Shown: piece after piece, positions 9,845-62,910 of the stretch | Layout of the letters: each line of letters opens with the position of its first letter | Numbering within the stretch: the stretch's first letter is position 1 | Origin: Fibrobacter sp. UWR3 | GTDB taxonomy: Bacteria > Fibrobacterota > Fibrobacteria > Fibrobacterales > Fibrobacteraceae | DNA: 64,000 nt | Reading direction: 5' to 3' | Assembly (NCBI RefSeq): GCF_900143055.1 | Contig: NZ_FRCW01000005.1 | Coordinates: forward strand, 62,001 to 126,000 | Made by a program: the position numbers and the translations under genes | The notes under the pieces: model-generated | What the model saw: only the letters and a program-made list of their open reading frames with translations | Database searches by the model: none | Told to the model about the DNA's origin: nothing

Positions 9845-11110
9845 TTAAACGGCCGCAAGCCTTTTTGCGCAGGTTTCGGCATTGCGGACAATTTCTTCTT
9901 CGCCATCCACGTGGCGGCCACGCATTACGAACTTTCCGTTACAGATAACCGAATCGATGCAACTGCTGTCGGCAGCGTACACCCAGTTACTTACCAGGTT
10001 GTGGCCGGGCACCATGCGTTCGTTCTTCAGGTCGACCAGCAGGCAATCCGCGAGGTAGCCTTCCTTGATTTCGCCGGCATCCATTAGCCCGTAGGCACGC
10101 GCCACATGGACAGTCGCCATCTTCAGCGCTTCGTGCGCAGGCAACGTCTCCGCACCGCCCTGCACCTTCGCAAGCAAAGCCGCAAGCTTCATCTCCTCGT
10201 GCATGTCAAGGTTGTTGTTCGAGGAATCGCCATCCGTACCGAGGGCAACATTTGCACCGGAACGCAACAGGCGGTCAATCGGCGGGATACCGCTAGCGAG
10301 TTTCAAGTTCGAATTCGGGTTCAATACCGCCGTCGCGCCCAAATCCACGAATGCCTTCATGTCATCATCCGAGAGATGAACGCAATGCGCCGCAGCGAGG
10401 TTCGAACCGAGCATTCCCGCACGTTCCAGCAGGCGGACCGGACTGCACCCGTACTGCCTTTCGCAATCTTCCAGTTCCTTTTTCGTTTCGGAGAGGTGCG
10501 TATGGACCATGAAATTTTCGGAGCGGGCAAAGTCGGCACAGCGCTTCAGCAGCGCCTCGCCCACTGTGTATACGGAATGCGGGGCAACCGCAAGGCGCAC
10601 GCGTTCCGATTCACCGGTATGCGCGGCAAGGAACTTGAAATTGCCCTCAATCGCTTCTGGCGACATGAGAGATTCCGCAAACGTCACGCCCACTGCAGCA
10701 CGTATGCCCATCTCCCCGACAACCTTGATGGTACGTTCGCGATGCCAGTACATGTCGGCAAAGAAAACCGTACCCGACTTAATCATCTCGAGAAGGGCAA
10801 GTCGACAAGCCACGTCGATATCGTCACCCGTAAGTTTGGCCTCGAACGGCCAGATGTATTCCTGCAGCCACTTCTGGAGCGGCATATCGTCGGCATACCC
10901 GCGCAAGAGCGTCATCGCCGCATGCGTATGCCCGTTGTAGAACGCCGGGAAAATGGCGAAGCGCGAGCAGTCCACGACCTCAGCGCCAAGCGACTCCTCG
11001 GGGGGAACCACCCCTATGCGTGCAAAGCGATTCCCCGCGATAAGCACGTCCACAACCCTGTCGCCGCCCTGACCGGGCAACACCACCGACTTCAGTAAAA
11101 TCTTGTGCAT
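9845..11110 (-). CDS. Amidohydrolase, MTA/SAH deaminase type
   Basis: 421 residues, ATG 11110. Member of the metal-dependent amidohydrolase superfamily. Seen: metal site NGHTHAAM (H-x-H), VHTHLSE, AHCVHLSDDD, and ALGTDGDSSNNNLDMHEEMK with the catalytic Asp. These match the 5-methylthioadenosine/S-adenosylhomocysteine deaminase (MtaD) group, and the length fits. Reaction inferred: hydrolytic deamination of MTA or SAH, or of a related guanine- or cytosine-like base. It is transcribed divergently from the diguanylate cyclase and convergently with the CvpA gene. No other methionine-salvage gene is adjacent, so substrate remains open. Confidence 0.85.
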   Translation of the reverse strand: MHKILLKSVVLPGQGGDRVVDVLIAGNRFARIGVVPPEESLGAEVVDCSRFAIFPAFYNGHTHAAMTLLRGYADDMPLQKWLQEYIWPFEAKLTGDDIDVACRLALLEMIKSGTVFFADMYWHRERTIKVVGEMGIRAAVGVTFAESLMSPEAIEGNFKFLAAHTGESERVRLAVAPHSVYTVGEALLKRCADFARSENFMVHTHLSETKKELEDCERQYGCSPVRLLERAGMLGSNLAAAHCVHLSDDDMKAFVDLGATAVLNPNSNLKLASGIPPIDRLLRSGANVALGTDGDSSNNNLDMHEEMKLAALLAKVQGGAETLPAHEALKMATVHVARAYGLMDAGEIKEGYLADCLLVDLKNERMVPGHNLVSNWVYAADSSCIDSVICNGKFVMRGRHVDGEEEIVRNAETCAKRLAAV

Positions 11111-11242
11111 AACGATACCCTTACCCCTTGCAAGATAGCATTTTTCAGTTTTGGAGGGCTAAAATATGATAAAAAATTCTTATTTCTGAAAAAAAAGGCA
11201 CACAAGGTAACCCGAGCGCACCGAAAATTATATAATAGAATT

Positions 11243-12250
11243 ATGAACTACGACGAAAAAGAGACTCTCCCGATATCCAGGAACGAATTCGCCGAACTGG
11301 AAATTTTCAAGAATATCCAATTCGAAAAATTGGCGGGATTCCTGCTACCCTGCAAGACAAAAGAGGTCGAACAGGGTACAACGCTCATTAGCCCCGACAA
11401 TCCGAACATTGACCTGGTCATCGTGTTGCGCGGCAGCCTCGAAGTGAAGCTCGAATCCGAGGGAGGAACGTTTACAAGCACCATCGAACAAGGGCACTGC
11501 GCCGGAGAGATGTCGATATTCGACAGCATTCCCCCAAGCGCGACGGTATCTGCAAAGGAAAACAGCAAGGTGCTGCTTATCCCCTCCGATATCGCACGGG
11601 CGATGATTTCCGCTTCGCACGAACTGAGCCTGAACTTCCTGCTCATCCTGAGCCAGCGCATCCGCAACAACAACAAGATTGTGTGCGAGGAGCAGTACCA
11701 TATCCGCCGCATGGAAGAATACGCGAAGGTGGACGCGATGACAGGGCTCCACAACCGCCGCTGGCTCGAAGAAATGTACACGCGCGAGATGGCCCGGAGC
11801 AACAAGGGAAACATTATGCTCACGGCATTCATGCTCGACATCGACCACTTCAAGAACGTGAACGACACCTACGGCCACCTCGCAGGTGACCAGGTGCTTA
11901 TTTCCGTGGCGCAGACGCTTACACGCAGCCTAAGGCCTTCTGACATGCCGGTGCGTTACGGCGGCGAGGAGTTCACGGTGTTCCTGCCCGGGACTTCGAC
12001 CAAGAACGCAAAGATTATTGCAGAACGCATCCGCCGCGACATGGAGAACATGAGCATTTCGCTCCCGGACGGCAACATCATCCAGGTTACCGTGAGCATC
12101 GGGTTTGCGGAACGTGTCGACAACGATACTGTCGCATCGCTCATCGACCGCGCAGACAAGGCTCTCTACCACGCCAAGCAGAACGGGAGAAACCGTGTCT
12201 GCCAGAACCTGGGCGACGGCAAAATGCAGTTGCTAAAAACCGGCACGTAG
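11243..12250 (+). CDS. Diguanylate cyclase with N-terminal cyclic-nucleotide-binding domain
   Basis: 335 residues from ATG 11243; the longer frame from 11105 would overlap the divergent gene and is rejected. Residues about 15-140 form a cNMP-binding beta-barrel (IVLRGSLEVKLE, GHCAGEMSIFDSIPPSATV). Residues about 165-330 are a GGDEF domain (DAMTGLHNRR, DIDHFKNVNDTYGHLAGD, active motif RYGGEEF). The inhibitory I-site RPSD stands five residues before GGEEF, so product inhibition by c-di-GMP is expected. It should make c-di-GMP in the cytoplasm under control of an unknown small ligand. No good ribosome site is visible. A possible c-di-GMP client, the PilZ-bearing synthase at 15179, lies 3 kb downstream. 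Confidence 0.9.
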   Translation: MNYDEKETLPISRNEFAELEIFKNIQFEKLAGFLLPCKTKEVEQGTTLISPDNPNIDLVIVLRGSLEVKLESEGGTFTSTIEQGHCAGEMSIFDSIPPSATVSAKENSKVLLIPSDIARAMISASHELSLNFLLILSQRIRNNNKIVCEEQYHIRRMEEYAKVDAMTGLHNRRWLEEMYTREMARSNKGNIMLTAFMLDIDHFKNVNDTYGHLAGDQVLISVAQTLTRSLRPSDMPVRYGGEEFTVFLPGTSTKNAKIIAERIRRDMENMSISLPDGNIIQVTVSIGFAERVDNDTVASLIDRADKALYHAKQNGRNRVCQNLGDGKMQLLKTGT

Positions 12251-13829: not shown

Positions 13830-15110
13830 CTAATCTAGCAAATCTGGATCGATAGTCGGTTCGTAACCGGGTTCCACGAAGTCCTCGGTCGCGACACCCT
13901 TCTTGCGCGCCGCCTTCATCTGCTTGATAAGCTTGCGTTCGGCCGCTTTCGCCTTGCGGTGCGCAGCCGTAGCCGCCTTCTCGGCATGGCGCTGGGCACG
14001 GGTCTTACGCTCCTTCAGTTCCGGGAACACGCATTCCTGCTCTTCTTCGGGCATATCGCCTTCGAAGTCCTCGTCGAAGCCTTCGTCAAAACGAATGTCG
14101 GCATCAAAGTCGCGGAAGCCTTCTTCCTCGTCGAACACCGGGGCGTCTGCCGGGCATTCCTTCTTCAGGAGTTTCAGCACCTTCGCGAACGGTTCTTCCA
14201 GCGGGACCTTGAACTTCATCTTCTTGCCCGTGCGCGGGTGGATGAGTTCAATCTTCACCGCCTGCAAAAGTTGCGCCGGGGCAATCTCGAGCACCTTCTC
14301 CGCAATCTCCTTCATCAGAGGCGGCACGCGGTTCAAGCTCTCTTCGCGGCCATCGTACAGCGGGTCGCCCACCACCGGGTGGCCCGTATAGCGGGTATGT
14401 ACGCGAATCTGGTGCGTACGGCCCGATTCCAGTTGCAGTTCGAGCAAGGTCGCAATCGCGAAGAATTCCTTCGCCACAAAGTGCGTGCGGCTTTCCTTCC
14501 CGCCCTTCACCACCGCCATCTTTAGGCGGTTCTTGGGGTTACGGCCGATGGGGGCATCGATGCAGCCCTCCAAATCGCGCGGGCAGCCCCACACGAGCGC
14601 ATTGTAGGTGCGGTGCAATGTGCGGGTTTCCAGCTGGTGCGCCAAATGCCTGTGCGCCGCATCGTTTTTCGCCACCACCATGAGACCCGGCGTATCCTTG
14701 TCCAGGCGGTGCACGATACCCGGGCGAAGCGGACCATTTACAGTTGAGAGATTTTCCTTGAAATGGTGCAGCAGGCCTGCCGCCAGCGTTCCGTTCTGCA
14801 CGCCGTTACCCGGATGCACCACCAGGTTGCGCGGCTTGTTCAATACGACAATGTCATCGTCCTCGTACACGATGTCGAGCGGGATTTCCTCGGGTTCAAG
14901 CGTACTCGCCTGCTTCTCGGGGACCTTCTCCACCACCACGACCATACCGCTCTCCACGCGAAAATTCTTGGAAACGGCAACACCGCCCACCTTCACTTCG
15001 CCTGCAACTATAAGTTTCTGTACGTCAGTGCGGGACACGTTCTCCATCGCGCCGACAAGGAACTTGTCGATGCGTTCACCGGAGTGTTCATCTTTTACAG
15101 GAAAATTCAT
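13830..15110 (-). CDS. RluA/RluD-family 23S rRNA pseudouridine synthase with C-terminal extension
   Basis: 426 residues, ATG 15110. N-terminal S4 RNA-binding domain (ERIDKFLVGAMENVSRTDVQ, VKVGGVAVSKNF), then the synthase domain with catalytic HRLDKDTPGLMVVAKND (Asp near residue 137) and GRTHQIRVH. This best fits the RluD branch that modifies helix 69 of 23S rRNA. Typical RluD is about 320 residues. Here roughly 100 extra residues follow: an acidic part (FDEGFDEDFEGDMPEEEQE) and an Ala/Lys/Arg-rich helix (RHAEKAATAAHRKAKAAERK) suited to nucleic-acid binding. The Mur ligase lies 139 bp downstream on the same strand behind two repeats. Confidence 0.9.
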   Translation of the reverse strand: MNFPVKDEHSGERIDKFLVGAMENVSRTDVQKLIVAGEVKVGGVAVSKNFRVESGMVVVVEKVPEKQASTLEPEEIPLDIVYEDDDIVVLNKPRNLVVHPGNGVQNGTLAAGLLHHFKENLSTVNGPLRPGIVHRLDKDTPGLMVVAKNDAAHRHLAHQLETRTLHRTYNALVWGCPRDLEGCIDAPIGRNPKNRLKMAVVKGGKESRTHFVAKEFFAIATLLELQLESGRTHQIRVHTRYTGHPVVGDPLYDGREESLNRVPPLMKEIAEKVLEIAPAQLLQAVKIELIHPRTGKKMKFKVPLEEPFAKVLKLLKKECPADAPVFDEEEGFRDFDADIRFDEGFDEDFEGDMPEEEQECVFPELKERKTRAQRHAEKAATAAHRKAKAAERKLIKQMKAARKKGVATEDFVEPGYEPTIDPDLLD

Positions 15111-15178: not shown

Positions 15179-18100
15179 ATGACTTCATTCCAGAGAATTA
15201 TTCGCATATTCGCCATCTGCACGCTGTTCCTTGCCGCAATGGCCAGCGCCGACACAACCAGCGTCATAAATGCCCGCCCCTCCATAAACGGGAAGCTCCA
15301 TGTAGAAGGCACGAACCTCTTCGACGAACATGGCAACCAGGTTGTCATCAAGGGCGCGAGTACCCACGGGCTCACCTGGTTCCCGCAATACGTAAACACC
15401 AACCTTTTCCGCCAACTCAGCAGGGAATGGAACACAAACCTGATTCGCCTAGCCATGTATTCGTACGACTACGTGCACGGCGACCGCGAAAAGAACCTCG
15501 AGATTCTGCGGAAGGGCGTGCAGTACGCCATCGAGAACGACATGTACGTGATGGTGGACTGGCATATTCTCATCGACAACAACCCGAACGAGAACCTTGC
15601 CGAAGCCATCAATTTCTTCAACATGATGGCAAAGGAATACGCGAACGTCCCAAACGTGATTTTCGAAATCTGCAACGAACCCAACGGAGACTGCACCTGG
15701 GAAGACATCAAGGAATACGCGAACATCATCATTCCCGTTATCCGCAGGCACAAGCCCGACGCCCTGATTCTCATCGGCACCCCGAATTACGACCGCGAAA
15801 TCCAGGAGCCGGCAAAGGACCCGGTGGCCTTCGACAACGTGATGTATTCGTTTCACTTCTACGCCACTTCCCACAAGGGCGAATCGCTTGCACTCCTCAA
15901 GGAAGTCGTAGGCGGCGGCACCCCCATCTTCATTACCGAAAGCGGACTCTGCGAAGCGAGCGGCGACGGAAAGATTGATCTGGAAAGCGTCAAGCAGTGG
16001 TACGCCACCCTAGATTCCCTGCACCTGAGCTACACCATCTGGAGCATGTCCAACAAGGAAGAGGAATCCGCCATGGTGCGTGCCGATTCACGTGCAGTGG
16101 ATTCCCTTGCCGAAAGCGACCTGAGCCTTTCGGGCCTCTATGCGCGGGCTCTTTTCCAGGGCAAGGACCTGAACAAGATTCCGCTCATCTATGAGCCCGT
16201 ATCGAGTTTCAAGATTCTCGCCCGCACGAAGCCCTATATTGTGTGGGGGATTTTCGCCATTCCCGTCTTTATCGTAATCCTTGTCGCTTTCCTTATCCAG
16301 AAAATCAGGAAGCGTTTCCGCTACAGCAAGGTTCGCACGTACGACGACCTGCTTAAATTCAGCAAGAACGAAAGCGCGAAAAAATTCAACTCCAGGCCAG
16401 CAAAGCAATTACTCGGCGACCTGTTTCTCTTCCTGAGCACTTTCTTCACGTTAATTTATCTATGCTGGCGTTTTACATGTTCCATTCCGTATGCCTACGG
16501 CTGGATTGCCATCATCGGAAGCTGCATCCTGCTCGCCATAGAAGTCCTCGGCTTTATCGAATCGCTCATACACTACGGCGGAATGCTCAAGCTACGGGAA
16601 CATCCCCTGCCCGAAATTGCCGACGCGGATTACCCCGACGTGGATGTTTTCATTTCGACTTATAACGAACCGCCCGAACTTTTGCGCAAGACGATTATCG
16701 GCTGCAAGCACATGGATTACCCCGACAGGTCGAAGGTGCATATCTACCTGTGCGACGACAACCGCCGTAGCGAAATGCGCAAACTCGCCGAGGAACTGGA
16801 GATAAACTACTTCGACCGCCCGAATAACGAGGGCGCGAAGGCGGGTAACCTGAACGCGGCACTCGCCCGCACGAGTTCGCCCTACGTGGTGACTTTTGAC
16901 GCGGACATGATTCCGCAGAGGAAGTTCCTGCTCAAGACTATCCCCTATTTTGTAGACGCCGAACGCATCAACGAAAGCCTCCCCGAAGAAACGCGCCGCC
17001 CGCTCGGGTTTATCCAGACACCGCAAAGTTTCTACACGCCCGACGTGTTCCAGCACAACCTCTACGCCGAAACGAAGGTCCCTAATGAGCAGGACTACTT
17101 CTACTGCGTCATCGAGGCGGCAAAGACATCAACAAACAGCGTGATTTACGGCGGGTCGAACACGATTATTTCGCGCAAGGCACTTGACGCCATCGGCGGA
17201 TTCTACACGAAATCCATCACGGAAGACTTTGCGACAGGCATGCTGATCGAATCGGCAGGCTTTGTGAGCCTCGGTCTTTCGCAACCGCTCGCATCGGGCA
17301 TTGCGCCCTCGACATTCAAGGAACACATCCAGCAGCGCACCCGCTGGGGACGCGGCGTCATTGCGACCACAAAGCAGCTCAAGTTTATGTTCAACCGCAA
17401 GTTGAACATCTCGCAAAAACTGAGTTACCTGAGTTCCGTACTTTACTGGTTCTCCCCTGTCAAGAACCTGATCTACCTGCTTTCGCCCCTGATGTTCGCC
17501 GTATTCTGCATCCCGATTTTCAAGTGTACACTTATCGACCTCGCCCTCTTCTGGCTCCCGATGCACCTGATGTCGATGTGGGCCCTCCGCTTCACAAGCC
17601 ACGGGAAGATCAGCGCCCGCTGGAGCGGCATCTACGAGACATCCGTCATGCCGTTCCTGCTTTTGCCCATCGTCAAAGAGACTCTGGGTATGACGCTTTC
17701 CAAGTTCAAGGTGACCCAGAAAGACAAGCGCGCAGTCCGACCGCAGGCCGACGGGAAGACTATCGCCCCGTTTGCCGTATTGCTCGTACTCACTCTCGCG
17801 GGTATCGTCCACATGGGCTACATGATTATCGCACTCGGATACATCGAAATTCTCGCCGTTCTCTTCTGGCTTTTCCGCAACGCCTACTACCTCACCATGT
17901 GCTTATTCCTCGGGATGGGCCGCGACTCCGACAGCGAACCCGTGAAGGTCCTTGCCGCCGAGAACGTGATGGTGAAAAAGCAGGACGGACACGAAATCGA
18001 GGGCATTACCACGAAGTTGACGGAACACGGAGTGGACATCTTTACCGACGAACTGAACATCCTGAACCTAGGCGAGCCCATCAGCCTCACCATATCGAAG

Positions 18101-18331
18101 AAGATGTACACCTTGCAGGTTACGGGAACTGTCGTTGCCATCCGCAATACACGAAGCCCGCGCATCCCAAGCGTCTATACCGTCGAGATTCTTGATTTTG
18201 GCGGGCAGAAGGACGAATACATCCAGATGCTCTACGACCGCACGCCAACGCTCCCGCAACGCTTGCGGCTCGGCGAAGGCCACATCGACAACCTGTGGAA
18301 CAACATCGCCCACCGCATTGTGACCCGATAA
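15179..18331 (+). CDS. GH5 endoglucanase - GT2 cellulose synthase (BcsA-like) - PilZ fusion
   Basis: 1050 residues, ATG 15179. Signal sequence (MTSFQRIIRIFAICTLFLAA), then a GH5 subfamily-2-like domain at about 35-320 with acid/base Glu in ICNEPNG (about 167) and nucleophile Glu in FITESG (about 254), plus DWHILIDNNP and FHFYATSHK. A membrane segment at about 346-372 and two more at 410-465 lead to a GT2 domain with all processive-synthase residues: CDDN (about 525), FDADM (573), ITED (680), QQRTRW (717-722). More membrane segments follow, then a PilZ-like domain at about 920-1040. Topology is coherent: cellulase outside, synthase and PilZ inside. Role inferred: synthesis and trimming of a beta-glucan in one chain. 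PilZ motifs look degenerate. No bcsB-like gene is near. Confidence 0.9.
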   Translation: MTSFQRIIRIFAICTLFLAAMASADTTSVINARPSINGKLHVEGTNLFDEHGNQVVIKGASTHGLTWFPQYVNTNLFRQLSREWNTNLIRLAMYSYDYVHGDREKNLEILRKGVQYAIENDMYVMVDWHILIDNNPNENLAEAINFFNMMAKEYANVPNVIFEICNEPNGDCTWEDIKEYANIIIPVIRRHKPDALILIGTPNYDREIQEPAKDPVAFDNVMYSFHFYATSHKGESLALLKEVVGGGTPIFITESGLCEASGDGKIDLESVKQWYATLDSLHLSYTIWSMSNKEEESAMVRADSRAVDSLAESDLSLSGLYARALFQGKDLNKIPLIYEPVSSFKILARTKPYIVWGIFAIPVFIVILVAFLIQKIRKRFRYSKVRTYDDLLKFSKNESAKKFNSRPAKQLLGDLFLFLSTFFTLIYLCWRFTCSIPYAYGWIAIIGSCILLAIEVLGFIESLIHYGGMLKLREHPLPEIADADYPDVDVFISTYNEPPELLRKTIIGCKHMDYPDRSKVHIYLCDDNRRSEMRKLAEELEINYFDRPNNEGAKAGNLNAALARTSSPYVVTFDADMIPQRKFLLKTIPYFVDAERINESLPEETRRPLGFIQTPQSFYTPDVFQHNLYAETKVPNEQDYFYCVIEAAKTSTNSVIYGGSNTIISRKALDAIGGFYTKSITEDFATGMLIESAGFVSLGLSQPLASGIAPSTFKEHIQQRTRWGRGVIATTKQLKFMFNRKLNISQKLSYLSSVLYWFSPVKNLIYLLSPLMFAVFCIPIFKCTLIDLALFWLPMHLMSMWALRFTSHGKISARWSGIYETSVMPFLLLPIVKETLGMTLSKFKVTQKDKRAVRPQADGKTIAPFAVLLVLTLAGIVHMGYMIIALGYIEILAVLFWLFRNAYYLTMCLFLGMGRDSDSEPVKVLAAENVMVKKQDGHEIEGITTKLTEHGVDIFTDELNILNLGEPISLTISKKMYTLQVTGTVVAIRNTRSPRIPSVYTVEILDFGGQKDEYIQMLYDRTPTLPQRLRLGEGHIDNLWNNIAHRIVTR

Positions 18332-18378: not shown

Positions 18379-20652
18379 ATGCTTTTCAATTTCGACATGA
18401 TCCAGGGCGTGTATGCCCGCATTCCCGCCCGCGTTGAAGCTGCCCGCAAGCAGTTGGGCCGTCCGCTCACCCTCGCCGAAAAGATTATCTACAGCCACCT
18501 GATCGATGGCGCCGAGAACAGGACTTACGAGCGCGGCAAGGATTTTGCCGAATTCCACCCCGACCGCGTGGCCATGCAGGATGCAACCGCCCAGATGGCC
18601 CTTTTGCAGTTCACCACCGCCGGCAAGGCCCGCGTGGCAGTGCCGAGCTCCGTGCACTGCGACCACCTGATTATCGCCCGCGAAGGTGTCGAAAAGGACC
18701 TCCCCCGCGCGAAGGAAGAAAGCAAGGAAGTTTACGATTTTCTCCAGTCCGTGTCTGCCAAGTACGGCATTGACTGCTGGCTCCCGGGTGCAGGCATCAT
18801 CCACCAGGTGGTGCTCGAAAACTACGCCTTCCCGGGTGGAATGATGATCGGTACCGACTCCCACACCGTGAACGCTGGCGGCCTCGGCATGCTCGCCATT
18901 GGCGTGGGCGGTGCAGACGCCGTGGATGCCATGGTGGGCCTCCCGTGGGAACTCAAGTACCCGAAGATGATTGGCGTGAAGCTCACCGGCAAACTCCAGG
19001 GCTTCGCAACCGCCAAAGACATCATCCTGAAGCTCGCTGGCATCCTGACCGTGAAGGGCGGCACCAACGCCATTATCGAATACTTCGGCGAAGGCGCTCG
19101 TAGCCTCTCCGCCACAGGCAAGGCAACGATTGCGAACATGGGTGCCGAAGTGGGCGCTACCTGCTCCACCTTCAGCTACGACGACTCCATGAGCCGCTAC
19201 CTCCGCGCTACAGGCCGTGCCGACGTTGCCGCCGCCGCCGACAAGATTGCAGAACACCTCAAGGCCGACCCCGAAGTCGAAGCAAATCCAGAAAAGTACT
19301 TTGACCGCGTCGTCGAAATCGACTTGAACACGCTCGTGCCGCACTTCAACGGCCCGTTCAGCCCGGACCGCGCCTACGCCGTGACCGACATGGCAGAAAG
19401 CCTCAAGGCCACCGAAACCAAGCCGGAATCTACGCCGGTCGTAAGCGCCGCACTCATCGGCAGCTGCACGAACTCCAGCTACGAAGATTTGTTCATGGCA
19501 GCGAACATGATCAAGCAGGCCCTCGCGAAGGGTCTCAGCCCGAAGTGCCCGCTCCTCATCAACCCGGGTTCCGAACAGGTGCGCTACACCGCCGAACGCG
19601 ACGGTCTCATCGACCTGTTCAAGCAGTTCGGCGCCACAATCATGACGAACGCCTGCGGTCCTTGCATTGGCCGCTGGGACCGCGCCGGTGCCGACAAGAA
19701 GGAACTCAACACCATCGTCCACAGTTTCAACCGCAACTTCGCGAAACGCGCCGACGGCAACCCGAACACGCACGCCTTCGTCGCCTCCCCGCTCATGGCC
19801 GTGATTGCAGCCCTCAGCGGCGACATCCGCTTCAACCCGATGACCGACACCCTCGTGAACAACGAAGGCAAGGCCGTGAAGCTCGACCCGCCAGAGCAGT
19901 GCGAACTCCCGCCGAAGGGCTTCGAAGTCAAGGACGCCGGCTACCAGGCTCCTGCCGAAGACGGTTCCATGATTACCGTTTCCATCAACCCCGAAAGCAA
20001 GCGCCTCCAGGCCCTCGCCCCGTTCGCCGCCTGGGACGGCAAGGACATCGCCGGTGCCCCGCTCCTCATCAAGGCCAAGGGCAAGTGCACCACCGACCAC
20101 ATCTCCATGGCCGGTCCGTGGCTCAACTACCGCGGTCACCTCGAAAACATTTCGAACAACATGCTCATCGGCGCCGTGAACGCCTTCAACGGCGAAACGA
20201 ACAAGGTCCTCTGCCAGTGCGGGCAGTACAAGGAAGTCCCCGAACTCGCCAAGATTTACAAGGCCAAGGGCACGGGCTCCATCGTCATCGGTGACGAAAA
20301 CTACGGCGAAGGCTCCAGCCGCGAACACGCCGCCATGGAACCGCGCTTCCTCGGCGTGAAGGCCGTAATCGTGAAGAGCTTCGCCCGCATCCACGAGACG
20401 AACCTCAAGAAGCAGGGCATGCTCGCCCTCACCTTCAAGAACGCCGCCGACTACGACAAGATCCAGGAACAAGACGTGTTTGACATCGTGGGCCTCACCA
20501 AGTTCGCCCCGGGTTCCGAGTTCACCCTCGTCGCCCACCACAAGGATGGCTCCGTCGATAACATCGCCCTCAGCCACACCTACAACGAACAGCAGTGGGC
20601 ATGGTTCAAGGCAGGTTCGGCCCTCAACCTGATCCGCGCGAACAACAAGTAA
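18379..20652 (+). CDS. acn: Aconitate hydratase (mitochondrial-type)
   Basis: 757 residues, ATG 18379 with AAAGAGA upstream. It interconverts citrate and isocitrate in the TCA cycle via a 4Fe-4S cluster. Cluster cysteines are seen in [12 protein letters not shown] and [12 protein letters not shown]. Other family motifs: [25 protein letters not shown], and the C-terminal swivel-domain segment [16 protein letters not shown]-terminus and length (about 755) match the mitochondrial/AcnM-like branch rather than bacterial AcnA (about 890) or AcnB. It is followed 14 nt later by a FISUMP gene, probably co-transcribed but functionally unrelated. Confidence 0.95.
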
Positions 20653-60555: not shown

Positions 60556-62910
60556 ATGAATATTCGCAAATTTTCACTCCCCGCGGCAATCCTTTCTGCA
60601 GCACTGCTCCCGATGAGCGCGCTTGTTGCCTGTTCCGACGACTCCAGCAATTCGAGCGCCGTCAACGAACCCATCGGCGATATCCCCGGCAACCCCGACA
60701 TCGACGACGGCACCGTTATTCCCAGCAACCCCGATATTGGCGACGGCCAGATTATCGAAGTGCCCGAAGCCAAGGATACCACGTTCCTCGCTCCCGATGA
60801 ACCCGCCCCCGAAGGCGGCTACACGGGAACGCTCACGGGCGTTTGCGAAAAAGGGCCCCTCAAGGCGGGTTCCGACGTGAAACTCACCTTCCTTGACGAC
60901 GCTCTCTCCCCCACAGGCAAGAGCGTCTCCGCCAAGGTCGCAGACGATTACGGGAAATACACCTTGCAATACACCGGAATGACATCGTACGCCATGCTCG
61001 AGGCTACGGGCGCATTCCTCAACGACATCATGGGCGATGCAAGCGCATCGATTACACTCAAGTCCCTGATTCGCGCCATTGACGGCGAGACCGCCAACGT
61101 GAACGTGATGACCCACCTCGAGGCCCCGCGCATCGCCTACCTCATGAAGGAAAACGGCATGAGCTACGCCGAAGCACAGGGCAAGGCCGAAAGCGAAGTG
61201 CTGAAGGCCTTCCACATGAAGAACTTCACGGTCTCTGCACGTAACCTCTCCGTGCTCGGCGCCACCGAGGCAGACGGAAACCTACTCGCCATGTCTCTCC
61301 TGCTCCAGTCCGAGTACGCCTCCGCCGAAATGCAGACCGTTCTCGATTACGTCGCCGCCGACATCGAGAAGGACGGCTCCTGGGACGACGCCACCATCCG
61401 CGCGAAGATTGCCGACTGGGCCTACCTGCAGAAGATGGACGAACTCTCCTACTACCTCGAGAACATCTCCCCTGCCCTCCCGAGCTTCGACCAGAAATTC
61501 CGTACCTTCTGGTTCCAGGAATTCGGTCTGGGCGTTTGCGACTCCACCATCCAGGGGAAGCTTGTCGAGAACAGCAACCAGCTTAGCGCATACCACGGCA
61601 ATACATTTGTATGTGCCGACACCACCTGGCGCATAGCTTCCGCATCTGCCCTCCAGAACCGCGAAGGCACCGCACTCTTTGGCGAATGCACCGACGCACT
61701 CGAAGGTACCGTCAAGGAAGCGGACGGAAAGAAGTTTATCTGCAAGAAATCCAGCTGGAAATACGCAAGCGACGCGGAACTCCTGGACATCGCCGTTACA
61801 GCGGCGAACGGAGCGTGCACAAGCGCAAACAACGGAAGCATTGTCAAGCACGAATCCGGATATGCCCTATGCCAGAATTCCACTTGGAAAAAACTGAACG
61901 CCACTCCGGTTGACTACTCCAAGGGCCGCGCCATGAACAAGAAGCTCGGTGCAGGCATCAACCTCGGTAACGCCTGGGAATCCAAGGGCCAGAAGGGCTC
62001 TAGCGCCGACTGCGGCTGGGGCAACTGCATCAAGGACGAATATTTCAAGATTATCAAGGATGCCGGTTTCCAGTCTGTACGCCTCCCGGTGCGCTGGAAC
62101 TACGATGCCGAACAGAACTCACCCTACACGCTGGATAACGGGCGACTCTCTGGAGTGAAGGCCGATATCGACCTCGCTCTTGCCCAAGGCCTCGTCGTCA
62201 TCGTGAACTTCCACCATTACGAAGAACTGAACAACTACGCCGTCAACTACGACAGGAACCCGAGCGGCTACGAAAACGAGAAGAAGCGCTTCCTCGGCAT
62301 GTGGGAACAGGTGGCGAAGGCAATGAACGCCTATGCCGACGACCAGGTGGTTCTCGAAATCTTGAACGAACCGCACGACATGAAGAACAAGCAGGTTGAC
62401 GACCTGATGATGTCCGCCTACGAGGTCATCCGCAAGAACGCCCCGGGCAAGACCATTATGTTCGAAGGCAACGGATATTCCAAGTTCGCACAGATTTCCA
62501 ACGTGCAGCTCCCTGCCGACGGCAACATCATCTTCACGGGCCACTACTACGAACCGTTCTCCTTCACGCATCAGGGTCATGGTTACGACTGCGGAACGAG
62601 GCTGAAGGATAGCGACATTTCCAAGATGCCGAACCAGTTCAAGGCATACGTGGATTCCGCCCTCGTGCACTACCCCGACATTAACGGCGGGCACATCCCG
62701 ATGAACATGGGTGAATTCGGTGTATCGACATGCAGCGGCAACGGCCCCACGAGCGAAGAACGTGCAAAGTGGACCGACGCTGCCATCAAGGCAGCAGAAA
62801 GCTACGACATGTCCTGGCATTACTGGGGACTCACGGGCGTGGGCGGCTTCGAAGCCTACTCGGGAAGCTGGAACAGCAACCTCCTGAACGTGTTCAAGAA
62901 GTACCTCTAG
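60556..62910 (+). CDS. GH5-family cellulase lipoprotein with shared N-terminal module
   Basis: 784 residues, ATG 60556. Lipobox ALVAC (Cys about 26), then an acidic Pro/Asp linker with two similar IGDIPGNPDIDDGTVI-type units. Residues about 93-340 are the module shared with the FISUMP lipoprotein at 3754 (GVCEKGPLKAGS, MTHLEAPRI, ENGMSYAEAQGKAE, FWFQEFGLGVC). Three Cys/Trp short repeats follow (GECTDALEG...FICKKSSW, GACTSANNG...ALCQNSTW). The GH5 domain spans about 465-784, with acid/base Glu in ILNEPHD (about 605) and nucleophile in NMGEFGVS (about 720), plus GINLGNAWE and TGHYYEPFSFTHQG. It should hydrolyse beta-1,4-glucan or a related chain at the cell surface. Own terminator downstream. 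Confidence 0.93.
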   Translation: MNIRKFSLPAAILSAALLPMSALVACSDDSSNSSAVNEPIGDIPGNPDIDDGTVIPSNPDIGDGQIIEVPEAKDTTFLAPDEPAPEGGYTGTLTGVCEKGPLKAGSDVKLTFLDDALSPTGKSVSAKVADDYGKYTLQYTGMTSYAMLEATGAFLNDIMGDASASITLKSLIRAIDGETANVNVMTHLEAPRIAYLMKENGMSYAEAQGKAESEVLKAFHMKNFTVSARNLSVLGATEADGNLLAMSLLLQSEYASAEMQTVLDYVAADIEKDGSWDDATIRAKIADWAYLQKMDELSYYLENISPALPSFDQKFRTFWFQEFGLGVCDSTIQGKLVENSNQLSAYHGNTFVCADTTWRIASASALQNREGTALFGECTDALEGTVKEADGKKFICKKSSWKYASDAELLDIAVTAANGACTSANNGSIVKHESGYALCQNSTWKKLNATPVDYSKGRAMNKKLGAGINLGNAWESKGQKGSSADCGWGNCIKDEYFKIIKDAGFQSVRLPVRWNYDAEQNSPYTLDNGRLSGVKADIDLALAQGLVVIVNFHHYEELNNYAVNYDRNPSGYENEKKRFLGMWEQVAKAMNAYADDQVVLEILNEPHDMKNKQVDDLMMSAYEVIRKNAPGKTIMFEGNGYSKFAQISNVQLPADGNIIFTGHYYEPFSFTHQGHGYDCGTRLKDSDISKMPNQFKAYVDSALVHYPDINGGHIPMNMGEFGVSTCSGNGPTSEERAKWTDAAIKAAESYDMSWHYWGLTGVGGFEAYSGSWNSNLLNVFKKYL

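Follow-up and report, generated by a model that had tools for sequence, protein, structure and literature searches.

A putative single-chain beta-glucan synthase-hydrolase in Fibrobacter: a GH5 endoglucanase domain fused to a Ccs-type GT2 synthase

In this study, we analysed a gene of Fibrobacter sp. UWR3 that encodes a GH5 endoglucanase domain and a GT2 glucan synthase in one chain; it lies on the forward strand of a 64,000-nucleotide stretch (positions 62,001 to 126,000 of contig NZ_FRCW01000005.1), here called the window, from whose first letter all coordinates are counted. Reading the sequence and a structure model together, we propose, with a probability of about 0.6, that its product is a single-chain beta-glucan synthase-hydrolase, in which a Ccs-type catalytic subunit placed behind a signal peptide and a GH5 domain would trim its own product, free of BcsB and independent of cyclic dimeric guanosine monophosphate (c-di-GMP). 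The gene is a single open frame of 1050 codons running from ATG to stop, and on the opposite strand only overlapping frames were found, none of them gene-like. Full-length, single-frame orthologues are present in other Fibrobacter genomes (68-97% identity) and in two Butyrivibrio records (about 51% identity). The uninterrupted frame and these orthologues exclude separate GH5 and GT2 frames, and the initial annotation, made from the sequence of the window, had rightly placed both domains in one chain.

In the hydrolase part, Pfam PF00150 (Cellulase/GH5) matches residues 49-293 with a score of 192 bits (cut-off 23.5; E 1.6e-56), the closest solved relatives of the domain are Cel5A-type endoglucanases, and residues 32-330 of the model match the cellulase GsCelA (Z 45.6; 1.5 A over 297 residues), the match to Bacillus Cel5A being as good. 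The 11 active-centre residues tested (Trp67, Arg90, His129, Asn166, Glu167, His226, Tyr228, Glu254, Trp288, Lys293 and Glu295) are invariant in 27 fused proteins, both catalytic Glu included. The profile match and the invariance of Glu167 and Glu254 bear out the earlier description of a GH5 subfamily-2-like domain with both catalytic Glu; enzymes of this subfamily are mostly beta-1,4 endoglucanases (PMC3526467).

In the synthase part, several Pfam GT2 families match residues 486-776, and the CelA/BcsA model TIGR03030 matches residues 415-954 (E 6e-109) with 364.9 bits, below its curated cut-off of 699.1. Besides the NEP and TE motifs, the window protein carries DDN, DADM, ITED, QQRTRW and FKVTQK, as expected from the claim that every processive-synthase motif is there; the D, DxD, TED, Q(Q/R)xRW and FxVTxK motifs that mark BcsA membership are all found, and DAD, TED, QxRW and the FxVTxK gating loop are conserved throughout the fused proteins. 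The GT2-membrane part is about 29% identical to E. coli BcsA. In simple Nei-Gojobori estimates between Fibrobacter orthologues, the median ratio of non-synonymous to synonymous substitution rates (dN/dS) was 0.078 for the GH5 domain and 0.089 for the GT2-membrane part, both pointing to purifying selection; it was higher in the PilZ-like tail (0.142) and in the linker (0.163).

By its sequence, the GT2 half falls outside the Bcs synthases. The initial annotation had found no BcsB-like partner adjacent to the gene, and this absence extends to the whole genome (3.55 Mb, 20 contigs, rated 100% complete), in which PF03170 gave zero matches while control profiles did match, and in which BcsC was not found anywhere. 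A Bcs operon with missing or distant partners was rejected on the same ground, the genome having neither BcsB nor BcsC.

The chain runs from a signal peptide through the GH5 domain, a membrane helix, a basic loop, two helices, the GT2 core, four helices and a PilZ-shaped domain to a C-terminal helix. In the AlphaFold2 model of the full chain (mean predicted local distance difference test score, pLDDT, 85.3), the cellulase fold of residues 32-330 is followed by a BcsA fold: residues about 344-1050 align structurally with the E. coli and Cereibacter BcsA proteins at Z 31-35, the best of these superpositions covering about 620-640 residues. As judged from sequence and model, this seven-helix synthase part has the BcsA fold without the first helix of BcsA. 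Since the signal peptide is putatively cleaved and the loops follow the positive-inside pattern, the GH5 domain is predicted to lie on the periplasmic side, at the opening of the BcsA-type channel, and this prediction agrees with the suggestion that the cellulase sits where the glucan chain would leave the membrane.

The tail of the protein has PilZ shape in the model, and to this extent the initial annotation of a PilZ-like tail stands; however, Pfam PilZ has zero match in it even at E<=1 and the c-di-GMP motifs are gone, so that the tail is not to be taken for a c-di-GMP switch. Pfam PilZ was found in one unfused relative (E 2e-10) and is missing in the Butyrivibrio counterpart as in the window protein. 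The RxxxR and D/NxSxxG motifs were present in 0 of 25 fused proteins versus 31 of 33 unfused relatives, the two unfused exceptions (L072 and L084) being basal sequences whose C-terminal part is not alignable to PilZ. By counting from the QxxRW motif, we find Ser in the window protein where BcsA has Glu371, which takes part in the inhibitory salt link. Judged by sequence, the tail has lost the c-di-GMP site and is not a c-di-GMP receptor; the motif loss is one event on the tree, so that its link to the fusion is an association and not a statistical result. A c-di-GMP-controlled cellulose synthase is unsupported, both binding motifs being gone in every fused protein.

GGDEF proteins are encoded in the same genome (14 matches), the best match being a cyclic-nucleotide-binding and GGDEF protein at 11105-12250 (+), 3 kb upstream of the fusion gene. 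A GAF-GGDEF gene is also a near neighbour of the fusion, at a distance of about 90-220 bp, in three related Fibrobacter genomes (L113:10970-12343, L117:625-1998 and L119:5212-6588), even though the fused tail no longer has the c-di-GMP motif.

The GT2 half belongs, by sequence comparison, with the clostridial Ccs/RiGT2-type synthases, in a tree drawn without the published CcsA and RiGT2 sequences. The initial annotation had taken BcsA with a GH8 BcsZ as its yardstick, which does not suit a synthase grouping with systems whose operons already hold a GH5 gene (PMC7710045). In ccsZABHI of Clostridioides difficile (Scott et al. 2020), CcsZ is a membrane-anchored GH5 endo-beta-1,4-glucanase, and BcsB, BcsC and BcsZ are missing (PMC7710045). 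RiGT2 of Romboutsia ilealis, with seven helices, makes mixed-linkage (1,3;1,4)-beta-glucan in yeast without BcsB or c-di-GMP, its PilZ domain being needed (PMC10374906). The window protein resembles the ccsZABHI system in that a BcsA-fold GT2-PilZ synthase without BcsB/BcsC homologues is paired with a membrane-anchored GH5, and its unfused relatives stand in such operons; it differs in being one chain with the hydrolase first, in the lost c-di-GMP motif, and in its surroundings, where genes of ccsB, ccsH and ccsI type (CBM-like, MBOAT and DHHW) were not found beside the fusion gene in the window or in related fused loci. With RiGT2 it shares a stand-alone GT2-PilZ layout, seven predicted helices, freedom from BcsB, the FxVTxK gating loop and a residue other than Glu at the position of BcsA Glu371 (RiGT2 has Thr and the window protein Ser; PMC10374906), whereas RiGT2 has no fused hydrolase and retains the RxxxR and NxSxxG motifs missing in all fused proteins.

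Operons of the unfused synthases comprise VTC-domain, DUF4956, CotH, synthase, MBOAT and DHHW genes and often a GH5 gene (VTC and DUF4956 labels read from sequence, CotH by Pfam). As the solo relatives normally have a distinct GH5 gene in their operons, the fusion appears to condense the Ccs synthase and GH5 operon system into one gene; in the fused genomes the fusion gene stands apart from Ccs-type operons, and the window protein fits the Ccs group by homology, not by operon content. The operon GH5 is subfamily 2-like in L047-L050 and L104 but GH5_4-like in L088, L090 and L095, the Lachnospiraceae operons nearest the fusion; the same synthase thus seems to have gained GH5 partners of different types on more than one occasion. 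A distant GH5 structure match of the window protein, 6uje (E 1.3e-6), is presumably C. difficile CcsZ, in which case the published CcsZ would be a remote GH5 relative only. The VTC-domain, DUF4956 and CotH-kinase genes, which stand before or alongside the synthase in the majority of solo operons (L047-L050, L088-L095, L104), lie outside the five named ccs genes. MBOAT genes are present elsewhere in the genome of the window.

Table 1. Features of the fusion gene and its product (window coordinates; residues of the 1050-residue chain)
Feature	Residues	Position	Strand	Basis
GH5-GT2 fusion gene	1-1050	15179..18331	+	single open frame, 1050 aa; full-length orthologues
Signal peptide (MTSFQRIIRIFAICTLFLAAMASA)	1-24	15179..15250	+	hydrophobic stretch, AxA-type site; putative cleavage
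GH5 (subfamily 2-like) endoglucanase domain	36-330	15284..16168	+	Pfam, solved relatives, structure match
Predicted acid/base Glu167 (NEP motif)	167	15677..15679	+	invariant in 27 fused, 31 secreted and 8 operon GH5
Predicted nucleophile Glu254 (TESG)	254	15938..15940	+	alignment of GH5 sequences
First membrane helix after GH5, then basic cytoplasmic loop	352-380	16232..16318	+	sequence and model
Membrane helices 2 and 3	407-470	16397..16588	+	sequence and model
GT2 catalytic core	484-756	16628..17446	+	Pfam, TIGR03030, motifs, structure match
DAD motif	574-576	16898..16906	+	alignment
TED motif, predicted catalytic base	681-683	17219..17227	+	alignment
QRTRW motif	719-723	17333..17347	+	alignment
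Membrane helices 4 and 5	759-806	17453..17596	+	sequence and model
Gating-loop motif FKVTQK	843-848	17705..17722	+	alignment
Membrane helices 6 and 7	859-913	17753..17917	+	sequence and model
PilZ-shaped beta domain without RxxxR and D/NxSxxG	915-1010	17921..18208	+	fold from model; motif alignment

The fusion was found in 23 of 80 Fibrobacter genomes, some copies being cut by contig ends or frameshifts, and within the phylum no full fusion was found outside Fibrobacter. The synthase is present in 37 of 397 sampled Lachnospiraceae genomes and is fused in four of the 37, one of these four copies being broken by frameshifts; a wider sample of 391 Clostridia yielded zero further fusions. In the GT2 tree all fused proteins form one clade (100/100), with Fibrobacter and Butyrivibrio-type proteins as sister groups, nested stepwise inside the solo synthases of Lachnospiraceae (starred support, 100/95 and above) and well separated from both E. 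coli BcsA and the BcsA-like proteins found in other Fibrobacterota. The fused GH5 domains likewise form one clade (100/99), and the GH5 trees place it nearer to secreted Lachnospiraceae GH5 enzymes than to operon GH5 genes, a shared clade of fused and operon GH5 not being rejected by approximately unbiased (AU) tests (p-AU 0.596 and 0.203). The simplest reading of these trees is a single fusion event, in Lachnospiraceae, and a later transfer to Fibrobacter. The hybrid had been presented as a feature of a cellulose-degrading genus; this view needs revision, as Butyrivibrio-type Lachnospiraceae have the same fusion and Fibrobacter is most likely the recipient. The G+C content of the fusion gene (54.2%) equals the window mean, thus a recent transfer would not be visible from base composition, and the case for transfer rests on the tree.

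Several altered copies were also observed. The Butyrivibrio-type fusion gene L087:1240-4505 (-) of genome G503 contains at least two frameshifts, in the linker and the GT2 part, as a sequence error or a pseudogene would. In two other Fibrobacter genomes, in-frame remnants (L120:5399-5860 (+) and L121:427-846 (-)) join the GH5 start to the last part of the tail; the two have the same junction point, which lies at a short common CTCACC that is seen on both sides in the window gene, and this looks like gene loss by internal deletion. Genome G060 has a second, truncated copy of the synthase half (L111:6388-7722 (-)) in addition to a full fusion gene.

From its family membership, we infer that the cytoplasmic GT2 domain would polymerise the glucose of UDP-glucose into a beta-1,4-rich chain, which would be pushed through the seven-helix membrane channel of the synthase itself. 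More conjecturally, the periplasmic GH5 domain may cut the chain while it emerges, and the outcome would be short or soluble glucans or cello-oligosaccharides, not long fibrils. The enzyme would run without BcsB, BcsC and c-di-GMP, and the PilZ-shaped tail would be retained as a structural part. Precedents supporting the cutting step are the preference of CcsZ for cellulosic substrates (PMC7710045) and the lowering of cellulose by BcsZ in Salmonella (PMC5070118). Three points weigh against the proposal of a self-trimming synthase: both activities of the fused protein are read from sequence and model, the linkage of the product is not readable from sequence, and the residue after the nucleophile (Ser255, window 15941-15943) is Ser or Cys in all fused proteins, whereas an aromatic residue stands there in nearly all secreted GH5 relatives (mostly Tyr or Phe) and in all those encoded in operons (Trp), so that specificity or rate may differ from that of secreted cellulases.

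The product of the same single-chain machine could instead be a mixed-linkage (1,3;1,4)-beta-glucan as made by RiGT2, with the GH5 domain cutting at beta-1,4 stretches, an alternative that we regard as unlikely but deserving attention. RiGT2 is likewise a BcsB-free, seven-helix GT2-PilZ synthase, and its authors state that structure alone cannot separate mixed-linkage from cellulose synthesis (PMC10374906); in addition, the fused synthases fall in the same broad clostridial group, in the GT2 tree without the RiGT2 sequence. On the other hand, the predominance of beta-1,4 endoglucanases in GH5 subfamily 2 (PMC3526467) and the cellulosic preference of CcsZ, the nearest studied cognate hydrolase (PMC7710045), speak against it. 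It is quite improbable that the GH5 domain is a transglycosylase or acceptor-attaching enzyme, which would join or re-shape the emerging glucan instead of shortening it: while GH5 enzymes are retaining, so that transfer is chemically possible, while PMC5070118 cites a family 5 cellulase that has transglucosylase activity and takes part in making cellulose, and while every fused protein has another residue in place of the aromatic one that follows the nucleophile, the tested residues of the hydrolytic centre are all conserved and the nearest solved structures are ordinary endoglucanases. Very improbable is a synthase part that is poorly active or serves mainly as membrane anchor, the protein being a cellulase of the periplasm that acts on imported cello-oligosaccharides; in its favour are the cellulolytic habit of Fibrobacter, the lack of operon partners beside the gene and the faster evolution of the PilZ-shaped tail (dN/dS 0.142), but the GT2 motifs, QxxRW and the gating loop vary little or not at all, and selection constrains the GT2 core as strongly as the GH5 domain. 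Finally, two genes read as one by an assembly or annotation error, to which the rarity of the architecture and the frameshifts of the Lachnospiraceae copy L087 might point, were rejected as a practically negligible possibility, given that many genomes from two phyla, each assembled independently, have the orthologue in a single frame and that both halves are congruent as single clades.

Intergenic DNA of 68 and 47 bp separates the fusion gene from its neighbours, and no flanking frame in the window resembles a polysaccharide gene. The upstream neighbour is divergent and pseudouridine-synthase-like (13830-15110 (-)), and the downstream one is aconitase-like (18379-20652 (+)), both labels being read from the translations.

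Compared with the Bcs system (BcsA-BcsB, BcsZ and BcsC), the self-trimming synthase proposed here shares the BcsA fold, the GT2 motifs and FxVTxK, but it stays below the TIGR03030 cut-off, has lost the c-di-GMP site, and carries a GH5 hydrolase where Bcs has GH8, in a genome without BcsB and BcsC. The sole published fusion of a cellulose synthase GT2 with a cellulase that we found is the tunicate CesA-GH6, an animal protein whose GH6 lacks the catalytic Asp, whereas the GH5 of the window protein keeps both catalytic Glu (PMC7464555); because the tunicate protein has lost its catalytic Asp, a fusion in which both sites are intact is the informative case. The BcsAB and BcsZC fusions of Zymomonas also unite neighbouring subunits of a cellulose system in one chain, but neither couples a hydrolase to a synthase (PMC7112194). 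GT2 is not mentioned in the GH5 subfamily survey (PMC3526467), and no report of a bacterial GH5-GT2 or other hydrolase-synthase fusion was found in the open literature, subscription papers lying outside the search. What is new here, in addition, is the Ccs-type affiliation of the GT2 half, the loss of the c-di-GMP site in the tail and the genome-wide absence of BcsB and BcsC.

A cellulose-cutting enzyme also accompanies cellulose making in plants, and the role of the cutter in cellulose-making systems (BcsZ, CcsZ, plants) is still debated. With cutter and builder in one chain and both sites intact, point mutants could separate making from cutting, and a natural BcsB-free synthase without a c-di-GMP site would be useful for reconstitution. 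The finding also raises the question why rumen cellulose degraders would produce a cellulose-like glucan. In a tentative and rather doubtful reading, one chain may replace synthase, co-polymerase and hydrolase in a self-trimming, c-di-GMP-independent and partner-free synthase whose intended product would be short beta-glucans or cello-oligosaccharides. Fibrobacter releases cellodextrins (Wells et al. 1995, as cited in PMC3079729), and if this reading were true, the protein would be, in a Fibrobacter genome without a BcsC exporter, a dedicated oligosaccharide-making enzyme and not a maker of fibrils.

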